Assembly (NCBI RefSeq): GCF_002750855.1
Contig: NZ_NWUC01000006.1
Span: 186,001 to 250,000, forward strand
Direction: 5' to 3'
DNA from: Neopararhizobium haloflavum
GTDB taxonomy: Bacteria; Pseudomonadota; Alphaproteobacteria; Rhizobiales; Rhizobiaceae
Length of the DNA stretch: 64,000 nt
Within the stretch, counting starts at the first letter, position 1. Every line of letters begins with the position of its first letter. The notes beneath the pieces are model-generated. The model was given only the letters and a program-made list of their open reading frames with translations, had not been told where the DNA came from and made no database searches. Shown in pieces: positions 51,723 through 62,711 of this stretch. The position numbers and the translations under genes were made by a program.

Positions 51723-52928
51723 TCATCGGAAAGTCTTGCGCGGGTCGAAGGCATCGCGGGTTGCCTCGCCGATGAAGATGAGCAGCGAAAGCATGATCGA
51801 GATGACGAAGAAGGCGGTAATCCCCAGCCAGGGTGCCTGAAGATTGCGTTTGCCCTGGGCGATGAGTTCGCCGAGTGATGGCGAACCGGGCGGCAAGCCG
51901 AAGCCGAGGAAGTCCAGCGAAGTCAGCGTCGTGATCGAGCCGGACAGGATGAAGGGCAGGAAGGTCAGCGTAGCCACCATGGCGTTCGGCAGGAGGTGGC
52001 GGAACATGATCGTGCGGTTGGAAACACCGAGAGCGCGCGCCGCGTTGACATACTCGAAATTGCGCGCGCGCAGAAACTCGGCGCGCACCACGCCGACGAA
52101 TGCGACCCACGAGAAAAGCAGCATGATGCCCAGCAGCACCCAGAAGCCGGGCGGCAGGATAGCGGCGATGATCAGCAGGATGTAGAGCACGGGGATCGAC
52201 GCCCATATCTCGATGAAGCGCTGCATGATCAGGTCGACCCAGCCGCCGAAATAGCCTTGCACGGCGCCCGAGGCGACGCCGATCACGGCAGACGCCGCCG
52301 TCAGGATCAGGCCGAACAGCACGGATATGCGAAAGCCGTAGATGAGTCGTGCGGTGACGTCGCGCGCCTGATCGTCCGTGCCCAGCCAGTTCATGTTGCC
52401 GAGCGTACAGTTGGGGTCCTCCGCACCCAGCGGATAGGCCGAGCATCGGGTCTCCGCGTCCATCATCCAGAACGGAGCGGTCGGCGCGGAATGCGGAATA
52501 TAGGAATTGGCCGTCTGGTAGGAGTAGCGTATGGGCGGCCAGATCATCCAGCCATTGGCGTTGATCTCTTCCTGGATGAACGGGTCGCGGTAGTCTGTCC
52601 TGGCCAGGAACCCGCCGAACTTCTCTTCCGGGTAGTCGACGAAGACGGGATAGAGCATCTCGCCCTTGTAGGAGGCGAGGATGGGCTTGTCGTTGGCGAT
52701 GAACTCGGCGCCGAGCGCCATCACGAAAAGCACCAGGAAGATCCAGAGCGACCAGTAGCCGCGCCGGTTGGCCTTGAAGTTCTGCCAGCGCCGCTGGTTC
52801 ATCACGGAGAGCCAGCGCCGCGGCGGTCGGGCCGGGGCGGCCGTGACATCGGCGCCCGTTCCCGGTGTTTCGACGCGTGCGCGCTGCTCTTCGGGCGGGA
52901 TCGGTTGGGTCACGGTCATATCAGACAT
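51723..52928 (-). CDS. yejE: Oligopeptide ABC transporter permease YejE
   Basis: 401 residues, six predicted helices. The first TM is at ~45-65 after a basic tail ([19 protein letters not shown]); a ~130-residue periplasmic loop follows, typical of YejE; the EAA-type cytoplasmic loop is [24 protein letters not shown]. Its start overlaps yejB by eight bases. Confidence 0.95.
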
Positions 52929-54018
52929 CCCTCCGCTCGAAATCGATGCGCGGATCGACCCAGGTATAGAGCAGGTCGGACAGGAGCCCGATAAGCAGGC
53001 CCATCAGCGAGAAGATGTAGAGCGTGGCGAAGACCACCGGATAGTCGCGGCGCACGATCGACTCGAAGCCCAGCCGGCCGAGGCCGTCCAACGAGAAGAT
53101 CGTCTCGATCAGCAGCGAACCGGTGAAGAAGGCCGATATGAACGCTGCCGGAAAGCCGGCGATGATGATCAGCATCGCGTTGCGGAAGACGTGCCCGTAA
53201 AGAACCTTGCGCTCGGAAAGACCCTTGGCCCGCGCCGTGGTGACGTATTGCTTTCGAATCTCGTCGATGAAGGAGTTCTTCGTCAAAAGGGTGGTCGTCG
53301 CGAAGGCCGCGAGCGCCAGCGAGATCAAGGGCAGTGTCAGATGCCAGAAATAGTCGATGATCTTCTGCCACCAGGAAAGCTGCTGGAAATTGTCCGAGAC
53401 GAGCCCGCGCAGCGGGAACCAGTCGAAAAACGAACCGCCGGCGAATAGCACGATAAGCAGAATGCCGAACAGGAAGCCGGGCACCGCATAGGCGATAATG
53501 ATCACGCCCGAAGTCCAGACATCGAAGCGAGAGCCGTCTTCCACGGCCTTTCGGATGCCGAGCGGGATCGAAACGATGTAGGAGAGCAGCAGGATCCACA
53601 CGCCGAGGGAGATCGACACCGGCAGCTTCTCGATGATCAGGTCGATGACCGTCACGTCGCGGAAATAGCTGCGCCCGAAATCGAAGCGCAGGTAGTCCCA
53701 GATCATCGTCGCGAAGCGCTGGAGCGGCGGTTTGTCGAATCCGAATTGTTCTTCGAGCTGCGCGATGAAGGCGGGGTCGAGGCCCTGGGCGCCGCGATAG
53801 CGCGAATTCCCCCCATCGCCGGTGAACTGCTCGCCCGCCATGTCGCCGCCGCCGCCGGAAATACGCTCCGACAGGCCGTCACCCTGCCCGGTCAGTTCCG
53901 CGATGACCTGCTCGACAGGCCCGCCCGGTGCAAACTGGATCACCGCGAACGAGATCGCCATGATGCCGAAAATCGTCGGCACCATGAGAAGAAGGCGTCG
54001 AAGAATATAGGCGCCCAT
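52921..54018 (-). CDS. yejB: Oligopeptide ABC transporter permease YejB
   Basis: 365 residues, six helices, starting [19 protein letters not shown]. The EAA loop is [24 protein letters not shown], and the large periplasmic loop after TM1 (~35-140) contains the [23 protein letters not shown] segment common to YejB. 51 bases after the second binding-protein gene. Confidence 0.95.
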
Positions 54019-54069: not shown

Positions 54070-55959
54070 CTAAGCCTTGCCAATCGCTGCCGCCTTTTCC
54101 TCGTCATGCCACCACAACTGCTCCACCGGCCAGCCGTAGTCGGGTTTCGGTTCCTTGAAACCGAACTTGTCCCAATAGGCGACCAGGTGATTCGCCGAAT
54201 ACCAATTTGGAATCCAGTCGAGCCTGGCCCGCAAGACCCGATCCATGACGCGCATGACCGTTACGAGCCCCTCTCGGCTCTCAACCGCGGCCAGCCGGTC
54301 GAGCAGCTCGTCATAAACCTCCGCGCGCACGCCGGGAAGGTTGTAGGTTCCGGGGCTGGTTGCCGATCGGCTCGAGAAGAATTCATCCATGCTTTCGGCC
54401 GTCGGCGTGGGTCCGAACGACATCGCCATCATCACCATGTCGAAGTCGTAGTCGGTCATGCGCGCGTTGTATTGCGCCGGATCGACGAGGCGTATCGAGG
54501 CGTCGATGCCGATCCGCCGCATGTTCTGGACGAACCCGGCATGCAGACGCTCGAATATGCTGCCCTGGATGAGGATCTCGAGCGTCAAAGGCGCGCCGTC
54601 GAAGAGCACGGCACTCCCGGACCGCTCGAGCCCGGCCGCTTCGAGCAACCGTGCCGCCTCGCGCAAAAGGGTCCTGTCGCGGCCGCTTCCGTCGGAAACG
54701 GGCGGTATGGCTGGCTCGCCATAGGCGCCTTCCGGTACGTCTGCCTCAAGAGAATCGAGCAACGCCTTTTCCGCATCCCCCGGCGGTCCTTCGGCCTTGA
54801 ATTCGGAGTTCTCGAACTGGGAATGCGACCGGCTGTAGACGCCGTAGAAAAGCTTGGCGTTGGTCCATTCGAAATCGAAACAGAGATTGACAGCCTGCCG
54901 GACCCGCCAGTCGTCGAAGGGCGGACGCCTCTGGTTCAGCGCCCACGCCTGCATCGATGGCCTCAATTCCTTGGCAAACTCCGCCTTGACCACGCGCCCC
55001 TCTTCTATGGCCGGGAACGTGTACCCGGTTGACCAGACCTGCGCCACGGCTTCCTGCCGCCAGTGAATGTCGCCTTTCTTGAAAGCCTCGAATTCCGCCA
55101 GCCGTTCTGAGAAGAACTCGATGCGGACCGTGTCGAAATTGTTGAGACCGCGCATCGTCGGCAGGTCGGCTGCCCAGTAGTCCGGCACGCGCTCATATTC
55201 GATGAACCGGCCTGATTCCACCCGCCCCGGCCGGTAGGGTCCCGACGACAGGGGGATATCCAGTGTCGAGGAATCGAATGTGTTGGCGGTGTAGTAGAGT
55301 TCCGAAAGGATCGGCATCGCTGCGATGGCGAGAATCGCCCGGGCCGATTGCCGCCCGTCATAGGTGAGTTCGACGGTCGCGTCGTCGAGTGCGGTCGCAC
55401 GCTCCATCGCGCGCAGCGATGTCGCCAGTGCCGGGTGCCCGTCGCTTTTCAGAAGATTGAGAGAGAACGCCACATCGCTGGCAGACAGTTGAGTCCCGTC
55501 GTGAAATCGCGCCTCCGGCCGAAGACCGAAGCGGAAAACGTTTCGATCTTCGGAGATTTCGACCCATTCGGCTGCATGGCAATAGAGCGAATCCGGCTCG
55601 TCCAGCGCACTGACCATCAGCGTGTCGAAGCAATTTTCCATCCGCGGTGGCGCATCTCCGGAAAGAACGAAGCTGTTGAGCGTGTTGAAGGTTTGCGGAT
55701 TCTGGTTGTAAAGCCAGGTCGGCACCGCAAGATGGATCCGTCCACCCTTGGGTGCGCTGGGCTCGACGTAGTCGAAATGCGCAAAGTCGGTCGAATATTT
55801 CAGCTCGCCAAAGGCGGATAGGCCGCTGAGGCGCTGGCCCACCGGGTTCTGGGCAAAGGCGCCGCTCATCGTGATTGGCAGGGTCCACAGCCCGGCCGAA
55901 GCGGCCGCGCCTTTGAGCAGCGTTCGCCGTGATAGCGCCAACGCACGCCTGGCGCTCAT
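54070..55959 (-). CDS. YejA-type peptide-binding protein with Tat signal (second copy)
   Basis: 629-residue SBP of the DppA/OppA (SBP_bac_5) family. The N-terminus LSRRTLLKGAAASAG has a twin-arginine motif, and cleavage is likely after AFA (~36), implying export folded via Tat. The ligand-binding fold starts ALHFD-like with YVEPSAPKGGRIHLA, FNTLNSFVLSGDA and FGLRPEARFHDGT. The ATG directly abuts the stop of the upstream paralogue. Divergence from that copy suggests a different peptide or opine-like ligand. Residue identity between the two was not computed. Confidence 0.92.
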   Translation of the reverse strand: MSARRALALSRRTLLKGAAASAGLWTLPITMSGAFAQNPVGQRLSGLSAFGELKYSTDFAHFDYVEPSAPKGGRIHLAVPTWLYNQNPQTFNTLNSFVLSGDAPPRMENCFDTLMVSALDEPDSLYCHAAEWVEISEDRNVFRFGLRPEARFHDGTQLSASDVAFSLNLLKSDGHPALATSLRAMERATALDDATVELTYDGRQSARAILAIAAMPILSELYYTANTFDSSTLDIPLSSGPYRPGRVESGRFIEYERVPDYWAADLPTMRGLNNFDTVRIEFFSERLAEFEAFKKGDIHWRQEAVAQVWSTGYTFPAIEEGRVVKAEFAKELRPSMQAWALNQRRPPFDDWRVRQAVNLCFDFEWTNAKLFYGVYSRSHSQFENSEFKAEGPPGDAEKALLDSLEADVPEGAYGEPAIPPVSDGSGRDRTLLREAARLLEAAGLERSGSAVLFDGAPLTLEILIQGSIFERLHAGFVQNMRRIGIDASIRLVDPAQYNARMTDYDFDMVMMAMSFGPTPTAESMDEFFSSRSATSPGTYNLPGVRAEVYDELLDRLAAVESREGLVTVMRVMDRVLRARLDWIPNWYSANHLVAYWDKFGFKEPKPDYGWPVEQLWWHDEEKAAAIGKA

Positions 55960-57846
55960 TCAGCCCTCCTCGCCGGGCTGCGGCGCCTCGGCGGCCGCCT
56001 TTGACCACCAGATATCGGGAAAGCCGATCGAATATTCCGGCAGTTCGTCCGGTCGACCAAACTTATCCCAGTAGGCAATCCGCGCGGTCCGCGAGGTATA
56101 GCTCGGCACCACGTAGTGATGCGCCAGAAGGGCCCGGTCGAGCGCCCGGGTCGCGGCCACCAGCGTGTCCCGGTCGTCGGCGAAAACGACCTTCTGTATG
56201 AGGGCGTCGATACCTTCGTCGGCAATGCCTGCGAAATTCTGCGATCCCTCGCGGTCTGCCGAGCGCGATCCCCAATACTCCCACTGCTCATTGCCCGGCG
56301 AGAGCGACTGGCCCCAGCCGGCATAGATCACATCGAAATCGCGCGAGCGGATGCGGTTGATGTATTGCGACGGCTCGATCGTGCGCACCCTTGCGCTGAC
56401 GCCTATGCGACGGAGATTTTCGACGAAGGGAAGTGCCACCCGCTCGATCGTCGGACCGTTGAGGATGATCTCGAATTCGAAGGGCTCGCCGGTCTGCGCA
56501 TTCACCATCCGATTGTTGCGGATCTCGTAGCCCGCCTCGCCGAAAAGGCGCACGGCTTCGCGCAGGTTGTCGCGCATCGCCTGCGGCCCTCCGCCTACTG
56601 GGTTTTTGTACTCGGTGGTGAAAACCGTTTCCGGCAGCTTGTCGCCGACGCTTTCCAGGATTTCCAGCTCCTCCCCCTGGGGCAGGCCATCGGAGGCAAG
56701 CTCGGTGCCGTAGAAATAGCTATCGATCCGCTCGTAAGCGCCGTAGAAGATGGTGCGGTTGAGTTCCTCGAAATCGAATGCGTAGTTGAGCGCTTGCCGC
56801 ACGCGGGGATCCTGAAACTTCTCCTGCCTGAGATTGGGGATGAAGCCCACCAGCGAGCCGGACGAACGGTAGGGGTTCTCCAGTTCTTCGCGAACGACAC
56901 GGCCATCCTGAGCGGCCGGGAATTCGTAACCGGTTTCCCATCGCAGCGCGGCGTTCTCGAACCAGTAATCGAAATTACCGGCCTTGAAGGCCTCGAACTC
57001 GACACTGCGGTCGGCGAAATAGGTGTAGTCGATCCGATCGAAATTGTTCGTCCCGATCCGCACCGGCAGATCGGCGCCCCAATAGTCCTCGACCCGTTCA
57101 TAGGAGACGTCCGAGCCCGGCTGGAAGGAGGACAGCTTGTAGGGTCCGGAACCGAGCGGCGGCTCCAGCGTCGTGGCGCCGATGTCGCGCGGCTGACCGT
57201 TCGGGCCTTCGCCTTCCCACCAGTGCTTGGGCAGGATCAGCAGTTGCCCAACGATTTGCGGCAGTTCTCGATTGTCGGTCTGGTCGAACGTGAAGGTGAC
57301 CTCGCGCTCACCGGTTACTTCGGCTCCGGTGACATGTTGATAGTAGAACTGTCGCTGGGGGTCGAGTTCGATCGCCTTTTCGAAACTCCACACGACGTCT
57401 TCCGGTGTCACGGGTTTTCCGTCGTGCCATTGCGCCCCCTCCCGCAAACGGAACGTGACCGAGGAATAGTCGTCGGGGTAGCTCAGCGCTTCGGCAAGCA
57501 GGCCATATTCGGCGGAAACTTCGTCCATGGACGGCTCCATTAGCGTCTCGTAGACGAGTGTCAGGCCGGAAGCGAGTTCTCCGCGCGACAGGAGCGGGTT
57601 GAAGGTGTCGAAGGACCCGGTCGCGGAGAGCCGCAGCGTGCCACCCTTGGGCGCGTCAGGGTTGACGTAGTCGAAATGGTCGAAGCCCTCCTGGTATTCC
57701 GGCTGGCCGATCAGGGCAACGCCATGCCGCCACTGCCGGTCGGGTGCATCCTGAGCGTCTGCTGGCAGGGCATGCACACCGCAAAGGGCGGTGATCGCGA
57801 GAAGGCTCGCCACCTGCGCAATGCGCGTTCCCAGGATCGTCGACAT
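55960..57846 (-). CDS. yejA: YejA-type peptide-binding protein with Sec signal (first copy)
   Basis: 628-residue SBP_bac_5 protein. A Sec signal peptide (ITALCGVHALPADAQ, cleavage ~32-34) precedes YVNPDAPKGGTLRLSA, FDTFNPLLSRGELASG and FRLREGAQWHDGKPVTPEDV. ATG at 57846 has AGGAG eight bases upstream; the longer frame to 58116 lacks homology. First gene of the operon yejA-yejA2-yejB-yejE-yejF, and closest in form to canonical YejA. Confidence 0.93.
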   Translation of the reverse strand: MSTILGTRIAQVASLLAITALCGVHALPADAQDAPDRQWRHGVALIGQPEYQEGFDHFDYVNPDAPKGGTLRLSATGSFDTFNPLLSRGELASGLTLVYETLMEPSMDEVSAEYGLLAEALSYPDDYSSVTFRLREGAQWHDGKPVTPEDVVWSFEKAIELDPQRQFYYQHVTGAEVTGEREVTFTFDQTDNRELPQIVGQLLILPKHWWEGEGPNGQPRDIGATTLEPPLGSGPYKLSSFQPGSDVSYERVEDYWGADLPVRIGTNNFDRIDYTYFADRSVEFEAFKAGNFDYWFENAALRWETGYEFPAAQDGRVVREELENPYRSSGSLVGFIPNLRQEKFQDPRVRQALNYAFDFEELNRTIFYGAYERIDSYFYGTELASDGLPQGEELEILESVGDKLPETVFTTEYKNPVGGGPQAMRDNLREAVRLFGEAGYEIRNNRMVNAQTGEPFEFEIILNGPTIERVALPFVENLRRIGVSARVRTIEPSQYINRIRSRDFDVIYAGWGQSLSPGNEQWEYWGSRSADREGSQNFAGIADEGIDALIQKVVFADDRDTLVAATRALDRALLAHHYVVPSYTSRTARIAYWDKFGRPDELPEYSIGFPDIWWSKAAAEAPQPGEEG

Positions 57847-58063: not shown

Positions 58064-59515
58064 TCATTCGCCGGGCAGGGGTGCCGGCTCGGCAGCGTTG
58101 CTGCGCAGAAAGGCAATCAGGTCGGCCCGGTCGGCGTCGTCGCGCAGGCCCGGAAAGGCCATGGATGTGCCCTGAACCTCGTCGCGCGGCGCCAGCAGGA
58201 ATGCATCGAGCCGGCCGTAGTCCCAGGCAGCATCGCCCGAAGCATATTCGGTCATGGCGTCGGAGTAGCTGAAACCCTCCGCGCTTGCCACCGGACGGTT
58301 GACGATGCCGTGCAGGTTGGGGCCGACGCGGTTCTGGCCGCCCTCATCGACCGTATGGCAGGCTTGGCAGCGTCGAAAGATCGCCTCGCCATTGGCCGCA
58401 TCGGCATCTGCCAGCAGCGCCACGGCCGGGCCCTGTTCGCTGCCAGCATCGGCTGCCTGCTCTTCGGCGTCATCCTGCGCGGCGGCATCTTCATCGCTGG
58501 CAGGGGCCTGCTCGTCATCGGCCGGCGCTTCTTCACCTTCTGGCGCTGCATCGTCACCCTCGGCGGCCGGCTGTGCCTCGCCGTCCTGGCTCGTGGCGTC
58601 CTCGCCGGTGGCGGTCGCGGGTTCTTCCGTGCCCGCCTCCACGCCCTGTGCGGCATCTTCGCTGGTGGCCGCATCGCCTTCGCTCGCCGCGTCGCCATCG
58701 GCCGTGCCCGCGTCGTCGGACGGTGAAACTTCTTCGCTCGGCGTTTCAGCGCCGGACTGCTGCGCTTCCGCACCGGCGTCCTCGCTCGCCGTATCGCCAG
58801 CGGCTTCGCCTTCTGCCGCCGCATCCTCGGAGGCGCCGTCGCCGGTTGCCTCTTCTCCCTCGGCCGGCTCGCCTTGTCCGGAGGCGTCGCCTTCGGGGGC
58901 GGCTTCCTCACCTTCGGCCTGAGCTTCACCTTCGGTGGCTGCCTCGCCTTCGCCGCCCTCTTCTGCGGCAGCTTCCGGCTCCGGCAGGGGTGCCGGATCG
59001 CTGGCCTGCTCGCGCAGATAGGCGATCACATTGGCCAGTTCCTCTTCGCGCGAAAGGCCGGCAAAGCCCATGGCCGTGCCGCTGATGTAGCTGCGCGGAT
59101 TGGCCAGGAAGCCTGCAAGGTGCTCGTAGTCCCACACGACTTCCCCACCTTCGGAGAACTCGGTCATGGCCGGCGAATAGCTGAACCCTTCATGGCTGGC
59201 GATCGGCCGATTGACAACGTCCCAAAGGCCGGGCCCGACCTTGTTGGCGCCGCCTTCTTCGATCGAGTGGCACGACGCGCACTTGGCGAACGAAGATTCG
59301 CCTGCTGCCGGGTCGGCGCTGGCCAGAAGCTCTGCGATCGGCGTTGCCTCAGGTGCCTCGCCGCCGCTCTCGGCCTCGACCACCTCGATCGCGAAACCTT
59401 CCTGCTCGGGCGCTTCGGAATGAAACAGGGCGTCCGACGCGAGCGACACCGACATGACGACGAAAACGGTGCCGAGAAACGCGCCGGCTGCCATGTTCAG
59501 ATAAGAGGAGTTCAT
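58064..59515 (-). CDS. Membrane-anchored di-haem cytochrome c (duplicated CycM) with acidic linker
   Basis: 483 residues. An N-terminal anchor (~9-28) is followed by [12 protein letters not shown] as in CycM/cytochrome c552. Cytochrome domain 1 spans ~62-172 (CASCH, Cys79-Cys82-His83; axial Met149 in GTAMGFAGL), domain 2 ~363-483 (CQACH, Cys383-Cys386-His387; Met452 in GTSMAFPGL). Between them residues ~174-361 are almost only Ala, Glu, Gly, Asp, Ser, Thr and Pro, strongly acidic and presumably disordered. Ordinary CycM has one haem and ~180 residues. It probably carries electrons between the bc1 complex and a terminal oxidase. Divergent from kdsB. Confidence 0.9.
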
Positions 59516-59667
59516 TCCCTAAACGCTCCTTCACGGAATGCCTGATCGGCACTGGCCTTCTTGAATTCGCGCGGAACCTATGTCTTTTGCACAAGGCTTG
59601 CAACACTGTTTGTACGCGCTGGCCTGAGACTTTTTGACACTTTTTGGCCAATCTTTACAGGGGTTCG

Positions 59668-60432
59668 ATGACCGCACGACATGCATCACAGACGATCGTT
59701 CTGATCCCGGCCCGCATGGCCTCCACGCGCCTGCCCGGCAAGCCGCTCGCTGATATCGCCGGTCGGCCGATGATCGTTCAGGTCGCGGCACGGGCCCGCG
59801 AAGCCGATATCGGGCGCGTCGTCGTGGCCACGGACAGCGCCGAAGTGGCCGAAGCCGTGCGCGCAGCGGGCTTCGAGGCCGTGATGACGCGCGCCGATCA
59901 TCGCTCCGGGTCCGATCGGGTTGCAGAGGCCCTGGCGACGCTCGATCCCGACGGTACGGTTTCGACCGTGGTGAACCTTCAGGGTGATCTGCCGACGATC
60001 GAGCCGCGCTCCGTGGCGGCCGCCCTCGTTCCGCTTGGCGACAGCGCGGTCGATATCGCGACGCTTTGCGTGGAGATCAAGGACGCGGCCGAACGCACCA
60101 ACCCGAATGTGGTCAAGGTGGTTGGCTCGCCGATTGGCGCCGACCGTCTGCGCGCGCTTTATTTCACGCGCGCGACCGCGCCTCATGGCGATGGACCGCT
60201 CTATCATCACGTCGGCATCTATGCCTATCGCCGAAAGGCGCTTCAACGCTTTGTCGACCTTGCGCCGTCGGTGCTGGAGCAGCGGGAATCGCTCGAGCAG
60301 CTGCGTGCTCTCGAAGACGGGATGCGTATCGATGCTGCGATCGTGGAAGCCGTTCCGCTCGGCGTCGATACGCCTGACGACCTTGAAAAGGCCAGGGACA
60401 TCCTTGGCAAGACCCACCGCAACGGACAATGA
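59668..60432 (+). CDS. kdsB: 3-deoxy-manno-octulosonate cytidylyltransferase
   Basis: Activates Kdo as CMP-Kdo for the lipopolysaccharide inner core. 254 residues: [15 protein letters not shown] nucleotide loop, [17 protein letters not shown] metal site, and [10 protein letters not shown] with [13 protein letters not shown] at 59668 follows AGGGG; TTG at 59644 is unlikely. It overlaps pheA by four bases, the conserved alphaproteobacterial kdsB-pheA pair. Confidence 0.96.
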
Positions 60433-61325
60433 AAATGACGAAAAAGACCGGCAAGATCGCCTTTCAGGGCGAGTTCGGCGCAAATTCCGATATGGCCTGC
60501 CGGGACATGTTTCCGCAGATGGAGCCGTTGCCCTGCGCGACCTTCGAGGATGCCTTTGCGGCCGTAGAAAGCGGTGCGGCGGACCTTGCGATGATACCCA
60601 TCGAGAACACGATAGCTGGCCGGGTCGCCGACATTCATCATCTGCTGCCCGAGTCGGACCTGCATGTTGTCGGCGAGTATTTCATGCCGATCCATTTCCA
60701 GCTGATGGTTCTGCCCGAAGCGGAGCTTTCCGATATCCGCTCGGTACACAGCCATATCCACGCGCTGGGCCAATGCCGAAAGATCGTCAGGGAGAATCGA
60801 TGGAAGGCCATGGTCGCCGGCGATACCGCGGGGGCGGCGAAGCTGGTCGCCGAAAAGGGCGACCGCACGATGGCGGCCTTCGCGCCGCGCCTGGCCGCCG
60901 ATCTCTACGGCCTCAAGATTCTGGCGGAGAATGTCGAGGATACCGAAACCAACGTCACCCGTTTCGTCGTCTTGTCACCGAATGAACAATGGGCACCGCG
61001 CCGCAATGCCGATGACATCATGGTGACCACGTTCATCTTCCGCGTGCGCAACCTGCCGGCCGCGCTTTACAAGGCCATGGGCGGCTTTGCCACCAACGGC
61101 GTCAACATGACGAAGCTCGAGAGCTACCAGCTGGGCGGAAAATTCTTCGCCTCACAATTCTATGCCGACGTCCAGGGTCATCCAGACGATCCAAACCTTG
61201 CCCGCGCTCTCGACGAGCTGCGCTACTTCTCGCGTGAGATCAAGATTCTCGGCGTCTATCCGGCGCATCCGTTCCGTGTGACGCAGATGGAGCAGGAGCA
61301 GTTGGAATACGTACCGGCGAAATGA
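60429..61325 (+). CDS. pheA: Prephenate dehydratase
   Basis: Converts prephenate to phenylpyruvate in phenylalanine synthesis. 298 residues: catalytic domain with [30 protein letters not shown] and the TRF motif (NVTRFVVL), then a C-terminal ACT domain with the phenylalanine-binding ESYQLGG. No chorismate mutase domain, unlike the enteric P-protein. ATG overlaps the kdsB stop. Confidence 0.96.
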
Positions 61326-61395: not shown

Positions 61396-62478
61396 TCAGG
61401 CGACGACGGTCGCATCCAGAAGAATGCCGTTTTCGATCTGACCGAGCACGGCCATCTGGTTCTCGTCGCTCTCGGAGAACGAGGCAAGGACCTTGGCCCG
61501 CGACGTTCCGTCGTCGAGGACGCCGGTCCAGTAGGCCTCGCCGCTGGCATCCGCGTCGCGGCCAAGAACGTTTTGATACATCACGTCCACGAACGCGTCG
61601 TCGCTCAACATGTCGTTGTCGCCGAAATTTGCGGTGAACTCGTCGGAGTTGAGCAGCGCGTCCGCGACGTTGACGAGGCCTTCACCGCCATCCAGCCTGT
61701 CGACCCAGAAGGTCAGGCCTTGTTGATCGGGCATGCGCCCGAGGACGGCTTCGTATAGCCGGTAGGCCTGTCCTGCATTGCCCTGGATGTCGAGCGCCAC
61801 GATGTCGTTGGAAACAGCGATCCGGCCATCTGTCAGATCGGTCAGCACGTCCTCGGAGCGGACGGAGAATATTTCGCCGCTGGCGATCGGCAGAACGGCC
61901 TTGTACCCCGGCGTACCGTCCGCTTCCCCTTCCGTGCCCATGCCTTGGCTTCCATCGAGTGAGCGCCCATGCAGAACAATTTCGCGGGCCGTCAGGTTGT
62001 CCGCTGTAATCTGCTCGCTGAGCCGCAGGTCGTCGGGATTGAGAGTATCCAGATCGTAGGTCGTGGTTTGCACGAAACTATCGCCTGCCGGTGTCGGAAA
62101 GTCGGGGATTTCTCCACCCTGCGGATCGGAAAGCGACAGCAAGATGGGCCCGTACTGTCCGGCCGCTTCGGCAAGCTCCACGACGCCATCGCCATCGGCG
62201 TCCTGATCGAGCGTCGGTGAAACGGAATTCTGGACGCTGCCATCATCGGCGACGGCGAAACCGTGTATGTGCTGAGGGTGCGGCTGACCGGCCTCAACGC
62301 CTTTGCCAGTGGTGAGGACCGTCAGCGTCTGCGCGTCTGAATCGATAGCGATGAGTGCGCCGCCCGTGGCGCCTGAATTGTTGAGCGTTGTCAGATTGAC
62401 CTTGAAAAAGGCATCGGCATCCAGAAGCAGGTTGTACGCCTCGCCGAGGCTTCCGAGTTTTGCCGTGTCGATTGCCAT
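61396..62478 (-). CDS. CHRD-like/EF-hand protein with DUF4214 repeats
   Basis: 360 residues, acidic, no N-terminal signal peptide. Residues ~20-145 look like a CHRD/SOD-like beta domain with HPQHIHGF (67-74) and a perfect EF-hand loop, Asp93-Asp95-Asp97-Gly98 to Glu104, followed by GQYGPILLSL. Residues ~238-281 and ~296-341 are two DUF4214 repeats (YEAVLGRMPDQQGLTFW; YQNVLGRDADASGEAYW). DUF4214 is common in RTX-like secreted and surface proteins, so type I secretion through the C-terminus is possible. Start at 62478 has GGAGGAG upstream. No secretion genes nearby. Confidence 0.8.
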   Translation of the reverse strand: MAIDTAKLGSLGEAYNLLLDADAFFKVNLTTLNNSGATGGALIAIDSDAQTLTVLTTGKGVEAGQPHPQHIHGFAVADDGSVQNSVSPTLDQDADGDGVVELAEAAGQYGPILLSLSDPQGGEIPDFPTPAGDSFVQTTTYDLDTLNPDDLRLSEQITADNLTAREIVLHGRSLDGSQGMGTEGEADGTPGYKAVLPIASGEIFSVRSEDVLTDLTDGRIAVSNDIVALDIQGNAGQAYRLYEAVLGRMPDQQGLTFWVDRLDGGEGLVNVADALLNSDEFTANFGDNDMLSDDAFVDVMYQNVLGRDADASGEAYWTGVLDDGTSRAKVLASFSESDENQMAVLGQIENGILLDATVVA

Positions 62479-62711
62479 TCTTGGTTCTCCTCCGGTTTGT
62501 GAAAAATCATGGCGCATGGAACTCCATGCACGCATGCAACCGAAGGTATACGCAGGCAGGAGACCTAGGGTTTCAGGGTCGTGCCGCCGAAATCGTCTCG
62601 GCAGCAAACGAATGAGCCCGCCGCTCAGGGGAAAGCGACGGGCTCGGGGAGGTCATTCGATTGATATGAACATAATGCGGCAGAGCCGATTAGGTTCCAT
62701 CGGCGCTGTCG

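Follow-up and report, generated by a model that had tools for sequence, protein, structure and literature searches.

Anchored cytochromes are described carriers of electrons between the bc1 complex and oxidase (PMC7876108, available portion). One of them, cytochrome cy, consists of an anchor of 30 residues, a linker of 69 residues that is unresolved in the map and a mobile cytochrome domain of 100 residues. According to the same portion, the anchor lies where complexes III and IV meet, the haem domain is believed to oscillate, and the length of the linker influences which acceptor can be supplied quickly. PgcA of Geobacter sulfurreducens carries mono-haem domains on flexible linkers, and tethered diffusion has been demonstrated for it (PMC11520253, available portion). 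In actinobacteria, di-haem QcrC (cytochrome cc) also uses two cytochrome c domains to link bc and oxidase (PMC8361435, available portion). By the description given there, these domains are part of the bcc complex itself, which sets QcrC apart from the protein considered below. That portion also discusses as an open matter whether the cytochrome c carrier is free, anchored or held in a supercomplex.

We analysed a 64,000-nucleotide window of the Neopararhizobium haloflavum genome, focusing on a cytochrome gene and its neighbours. The features are as follows.

58064..59515, minus strand: cycM-type gene for a di-haem, membrane-anchored cytochrome c (open reading frame and translation; Pfam Cytochrom_C in two stretches)
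59426..59494, minus strand: N-terminal hydrophobic anchor, residues ~8-30 (read from the sequence)
59330..59422, minus strand: acidic spacer between anchor and domain 1, residues ~32-62 (charge; charge-hydropathy disorder)
59000..59329, minus strand: cytochrome c domain 1 (D1), residues 63-172, CxxCH 79-83, Met 149 (Pfam; groups with congener D1, 100/99)
58409..58999, minus strand: acidic low-complexity linker, residues 173-369, 197 amino acids (composition; charge-hydropathy, entropy)
58079..58408, minus strand: cytochrome c domain 2 (D2), residues 370-479, CxxCH 383-387, Met 452 (Pfam and trees; nearest to congener D2)
59644..60432, plus strand: divergent neighbour, kdsB-like cytidylyltransferase gene (Pfam CTP_transf_3, E 1e-46)
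60429..61325, plus strand: pheA-like prephenate dehydratase gene, next after kdsB (Pfam PDT, E 8e-59)

The anchor, spacer and first domain resemble those of CycM, c552 of Paracoccus and cytochrome cy of Rhodobacter capsulatus. Solved c552 and cytochrome cy chains match both domains of the window protein by sequence. However, c552 and cytochrome cy have one haem domain in the portion of PMC7876108 available, whereas in the window protein 197 residues of linker and another haem domain come after the first. Among described mechanisms, that of PgcA is the closest. PgcA has several mono-haem domains on flexible linkers, and the window protein has the same plan by sequence, with a linker predicted from its composition to be disordered. 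PgcA is tri-haem, lipid-anchored and exported, acts in Fe(III) reduction and has (PT)x linkers and one His-His haem (PMC11520253, available portion). In contrast, the window protein, compared by architecture, has an inner-membrane type anchor, CycM domains, an A/E/G/D-rich linker and an aerobic context. It also lacks a lipid anchor, with no cysteine before residue 79.

Architecture of the window protein

The gene is a single open reading frame, ATG to stop, encoding 483 amino acids. Hence, the coordinates, strand and length given by a first-pass annotation of this DNA were correct. Pfam Cytochrom_C matches the protein in two stretches (whole protein E 2.2e-17), and reading identified the ligands of both haems. 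This agrees with the earlier description of two complete cytochrome c domains, with CxxCH and Met ligands, behind one anchor. Between the anchor and D1, the spacer is disordered by charge-hydropathy and has a net charge of -9 over residues 32-64. Residues 6-170, comprising the anchor and D1, align to the solved chain 9fks_o, 'Cytochrome c, class I' (E 3e-28). With an N-terminal anchor that looks uncleaved and, after it, a class I cytochrome c domain bearing CxxCH and Met, the protein fits CycM. Its score against Cyt550_Brdyrhiz (NF043008, CycA c550) was 139 bits, below the whole-protein cut-off of 240.

Both domains fall in the CycM clade, separate from soluble cytochromes (99* in a quick tree; 100/100 in a careful tree), and in the window's genus D2 has the same landmarks as CycM (VNRP.AS..EGFSYS). 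D1 and D2 are identical at 53 of 104 positions (51%, E 6e-40). The domain duplication within CycM that had been proposed is therefore borne out by this identity and by the placement of both domains. In a codon alignment, 57 of 109 amino acids and 195 of 327 nucleotides were shared. Because DNA identity is only 60%, the pair is neither a recent nor a collapsed repeat.

The linker between the domains contains A 55, E 40, G 26, D 23, P 14, S 12, Q 11, T 10, L 3 and V 3. Thus, 97% of its 197 residues are A/E/G/D/S/T/P/Q, with 63 D/E and no K/R. The acidic composition is as first noted; the bounds are 173-369 instead of the earlier ~174-361. By charge-hydropathy, a prediction from composition, the linker is disordered and both domains are ordered. 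Local entropy is 2.6 bits in the linker versus 3.6 and 3.5 in the domains. The only common start codons in frame within the linker are GTG at 292 and 365; no in-frame ATG is present there. A search for long DNA tandem repeats as the origin of the linker found only a 15-base repeat of 2.1 copies inside the gene.

Polymer scaling gives a root-mean-square separation between D1 and D2 of ~9-12 nm for a linker of this length. The effective concentration of the tethered domain, estimated in the same way, is ~0.3-0.7 mM. A separation of ~9-12 nm is far beyond electron tunnelling distance, and electrons could therefore pass only when the domains meet. This counts against a wire spanning the periplasm, one of two ideas put forward in the first-pass annotation. 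A wire with fixed spacing was likewise rejected given the length and composition of the linker.

Haem number and origins across relatives

Three other genomes of the genus were examined and all encode a tri-haem CycM. A search of the family, including the window's own genome, found matches in 199 of 200 genomes. We counted haem domains at the best CycM locus in 145 of the 200. These are among the stronger matches listed; the remaining 55 genomes lie outside the count. There were 129 mono-haem, 13 di-haem and 3 tri-haem proteins. Multi-haem forms may be over-represented, because the query was di-haem and matches were ordered by score. A further di-haem member (L198, genome G023), from outside the 145, was met in another search. 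Haem number is not critical, since 129 of the 145 have one domain and the number differs within the genus.

At the level of the order, all 199 genomes searched gave a match; counts from this set are not frequencies, because loci were picked partly for long open frames. The class-level search matched 235 of 289 genomes. From 29 class-level loci we obtained 28 CycM proteins, 25 mono-haem and 3 di-haem, the latter from three families outside the order. The collection assembled at family and order level comprises 209 distinct CycM proteins, with one (166), two (37), three (5) or four (1) haem motifs. A single haem domain is thus not family-defining, as 43 of the 209, with the two-domain window protein among the exceptions, have more than one. 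CycM had been called normally mono-haem, which holds for most of the members examined but not all. The permissive Met-ligand pattern is kept in 258 of the 259 haem domains of these proteins; one domain is cut by a contig end.

The four-haem CycM (L245, genome G354, minus strand) has 688 amino acids and four closely similar domains that group together (100*).

Uniqueness of the architecture was rejected, multi-haem CycM being present at genus, family, order and class level. We conclude that the window protein belongs to a broad series that has arisen repeatedly and that reading it as peculiar to this genome is mistaken. Among titles and abstract openings listed in searches of open-licence literature, we found no description of multi-haem CycM, and an earlier one may exist. 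On a quick tree of domain 1, the minimum number of changes was 15 between mono- and multi-haem states and 18 in haem number; both are approximate, because the tree leaves 74 of its 206 inner branches open and brings long branches together.

Linkers vary as widely. The 50 inter-domain linkers span 29-216 residues (median 107.5), and the C-terminal tails of the mono-haem proteins in the family set span 5-196 residues (median 52), 71 of 129 having at least 50. Most of these tails are similar to linkers in composition. A linker of this kind is therefore common, as the survey of linker length called for by the first-pass annotation showed, but it is not a fixed feature. Long reach and acidity are not general either, because in many proteins the linker has only 29-59 residues or is not acidic; the L014 linker has only 9 D/E in 174 residues. 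The linker of one di-haem protein (L239, genome G283) is unlike the acidic linkers, being Met/Gly-rich with MSGM-like repeats, and is perhaps metal-binding.

As judged from domain trees, there are two routes to multi-haem CycM: internal duplication, as in the window gene, and fusion with a soluble c550-type cytochrome. The careful tree comprised 54 domains and separated CycM from soluble cytochromes and their derivatives as two sides (100/100). Eleven collected Rhizobiaceae proteins (L013-L016, L044-L049 and L198) form a fusion group. These share with the window protein a CycM domain, a low-complexity linker, a second cytochrome domain and the kdsB locus. They differ in that the distal domain belongs to the soluble c550 lineage and is not a CycM copy. 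In ten of them, this domain groups with 13 soluble cytochromes; L016, which nearly duplicates L015, is absent from the careful tree. Holding D1 and D2 of the fusion group together was rejected (p 1.8e-6), as was holding D2 with CycM domains (p 0.00035). A single clade of fusion-group D2 was also rejected (p 0.027), pointing either to repeated fusion or to conversion involving the resident soluble genes. The fusion group joins an anchored carrier to a soluble one in a single chain, and three of its genomes also have a separate soluble cytochrome of the same clade (L195, L183 and L206).

Group-private internal duplications were supported in f5, f31, f34, f16 and, within f18, in L221/L235. The window D2 groups with congener D2 (98/82; 89/86). 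Sisterhood of the window D1 and D2 was rejected (p 0.03); hence, the duplication is older than the species. Constraints holding congener D2 and D3 together (p 0.456), or the window D2 with congener D3 (p 0.376), were not rejected, and the third domain may have been either lost or gained. The small soluble cytochromes of the genus (L062, L067-L069) group with genus D2/D3 and the D2 of L021 in a quick tree (96*) and with soluble cytochromes in a careful tree (96/78); a constraint uniting them with D2/D3 was not rejected (p-AU 0.3). On these trees, an origin of domain 2 from the genus's own small soluble cytochrome appears unsupported.

Selection and charge

Ratios of dN/dS were calculated by the Nei-Gojobori method. 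Two comparisons among the three tri-haem congeners gave 0.00-0.01 for D1, 0.08-0.09 for D2, 0.03 for D3 and 0.02-0.12 for the second linker. The window gene against two congeners gave 0.12-0.15 for D1 and 0.22-0.25 for D2, which are rough values because dS is near or above 1. By these estimates, the extra domains of the tri-haem congeners are under purifying selection and the window D2 is less constrained than the window D1.

Cytochrome c1 faces the periplasm, as CycM does. Both window domains have a net charge of -8. For D1, 8 of the 209 proteins, itself included, are that acidic or more, and the median is +1. With kinship ignored, the charge of D1 correlates with tail or linker charge density (rho 0.60, n=177) and with cytochrome c1 charge (rho 0.53, n=60), and tail or linker charge density correlates with c1 charge (rho 0.62, n=54). 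Handled in the same way, D1 charge has no clear link to cytosolic KdsB (rho 0.13, p 0.07, n=190) or PheA (rho 0.11, p 0.23, n=130). As gauged from these charges, acidity looks like a trait of periplasm-facing proteins, consistent with outside salt or pH. For the suggestion in the first-pass annotation that acidity may matter in saline habitats, this support is indirect.

D1 is more acidic in multi-haem proteins (median -4 versus +1; 43 versus 166 proteins; p 1.5e-9, kinship ignored). The effect stays when c1 charge is included in a regression over 60 genomes (t -4.7), and c1 charge shows no difference between multi- and mono-haem genomes (p 0.94). A kinship-aware comparison yielded 5 supported independent pairs (sign test, median p 0.5). 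With so few pairs and that median, a tie between acidity and multiple haems is not established.

Proposed function and alternatives

Read from its sequence, the protein has one anchor, two intact haem-binding domains and a linker predicted to be disordered, at a conserved locus whose relatives carry 1-4 haems. We prefer to read it as a tethered shuttle with long reach, the other idea of the first-pass annotation. We hold with moderate confidence that the window gene is cycM and that its product would be a bc1-to-oxidase shuttle with an extra mobile haem domain, working by tethered diffusion. Briefly, the anchor would hold the protein near bc1 and the oxidases. D1, on its spacer of ~30 residues, would behave as an ordinary CycM, while D2 would roam ~10 nm further out on the disordered acidic chain. 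D1 and D2 could each dock on c1 or an oxidase and would exchange electrons with one another on meeting. Each anchor would thereby hold more electron carriers, and partners lying beyond the immediate supercomplex would come within reach. The linker would act as an entropic, charge-swollen spacer whose sequence may drift while the unfolded state stays.

Three other explanations were weighed. That two separate genes or a collapsed tandem repeat were wrongly joined in assembly is vanishingly improbable. We found nothing in its support; the open frame is continuous, the two domains have diverged in DNA as described above and multi-haem orthologues occupy the same locus in many other assemblies, including the single-contig genome G194. 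The window gene also lies in the interior of a contig of 341,841 bases. As far as the architecture goes, the collapsed tandem that the first-pass annotation named as a way for its reading to fail is thus contradicted. Nearly neutral modular expansion would have tails grow and shrink and domains duplicate and vanish with little effect, an extra haem being tolerated and kept by purifying selection against misfolding. The count of at least 18 haem-number changes on the domain 1 tree, the differing number within one genus and the variable length and composition of linkers and tails are all as expected from this account. However, dN/dS of D2 and D3 is low, Met-ligand patterns are kept in all complete domains and the same architecture was reached repeatedly by two routes; we consider the neutral account somewhat unlikely.

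A division of labour seems to us unlikely. Here, D1 would be the bc1-to-oxidase carrier and D2 would serve other periplasmic donors or acceptors, making the protein a tethered hub. Such a role would fit the greater divergence of D2 than D1, the soluble c550 type of the distal domain in one Rhizobiaceae group, which is a separate carrier lineage, and the other candidate periplasmic partners in the window's own genome, for example L066 and L070. Against it, the distal domain in the window's genus derives from CycM and shares its landmarks, and no gene for a partner adjoins the window gene.

For the family, we rate as evenly balanced the proposal that CycM forms a recurrent alphaproteobacterial series of tethered poly-cytochromes. 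In this proposal, 1-4 haems would be carried on one anchor, gained by internal duplication or capture of a soluble c550-type cytochrome, with disordered linkers of variable length. Aerobic respiration in these bacteria would then have, in tethered multi-carrier diffusion, an option that can be tuned and that differs from both fixed supercomplexes and free cytochrome c. If multi-haem CycM works by tethered diffusion, the class typified by PgcA gains a second, widespread branch in ordinary aerobic respiration. The natural variants at one locus, even within one genus, differ in how many haems they carry (1-4), in how long the linker is (29-216 residues) and in its charge. If the proposal is true, reach, local concentration and electron capacity become separately testable variables.

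Locus and genome context were compared across the same set. Divergent kdsB adjoins 191 of the 209 CycM genes, and this locus is common to mono-haem members. Among the other 18, 15 have pheA in the stretch examined and 3 lack both genes there; these 3 include the window gene, taken as a short-flank locus (L007), and the window itself shows kdsB. The search found the window gene to be the sole CycM-type protein of its genome. The query matched in four places there: the window gene, the small soluble cytochrome L062, L066, which has two cytochrome c domains, and L070. The gene beside L066 may encode a SoxC-like protein. Cytochrom_C has 21 matches in this genome, which encodes one cytochrome c1 and four COX1-family proteins over the cut-off. 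Cytochrome c1 and the four COX1-family products are likely partners of the window protein.

Several other features were observed. L070 (G000:C20:297671-298006) encodes a WD40 propeller fused to a cytochrome c domain and adjoins an iron-sulfur-like open reading frame. In the window, the protein encoded at 61396-62607 (minus strand) contains DUF4214 and matches CHRD below the threshold. Two consecutive genes for family 5 solute-binding proteins lie downstream of the cytochrome gene at 54070-57843 (minus strand), and these are followed by an open reading frame at 52921-54018 that is permease-like by reading.
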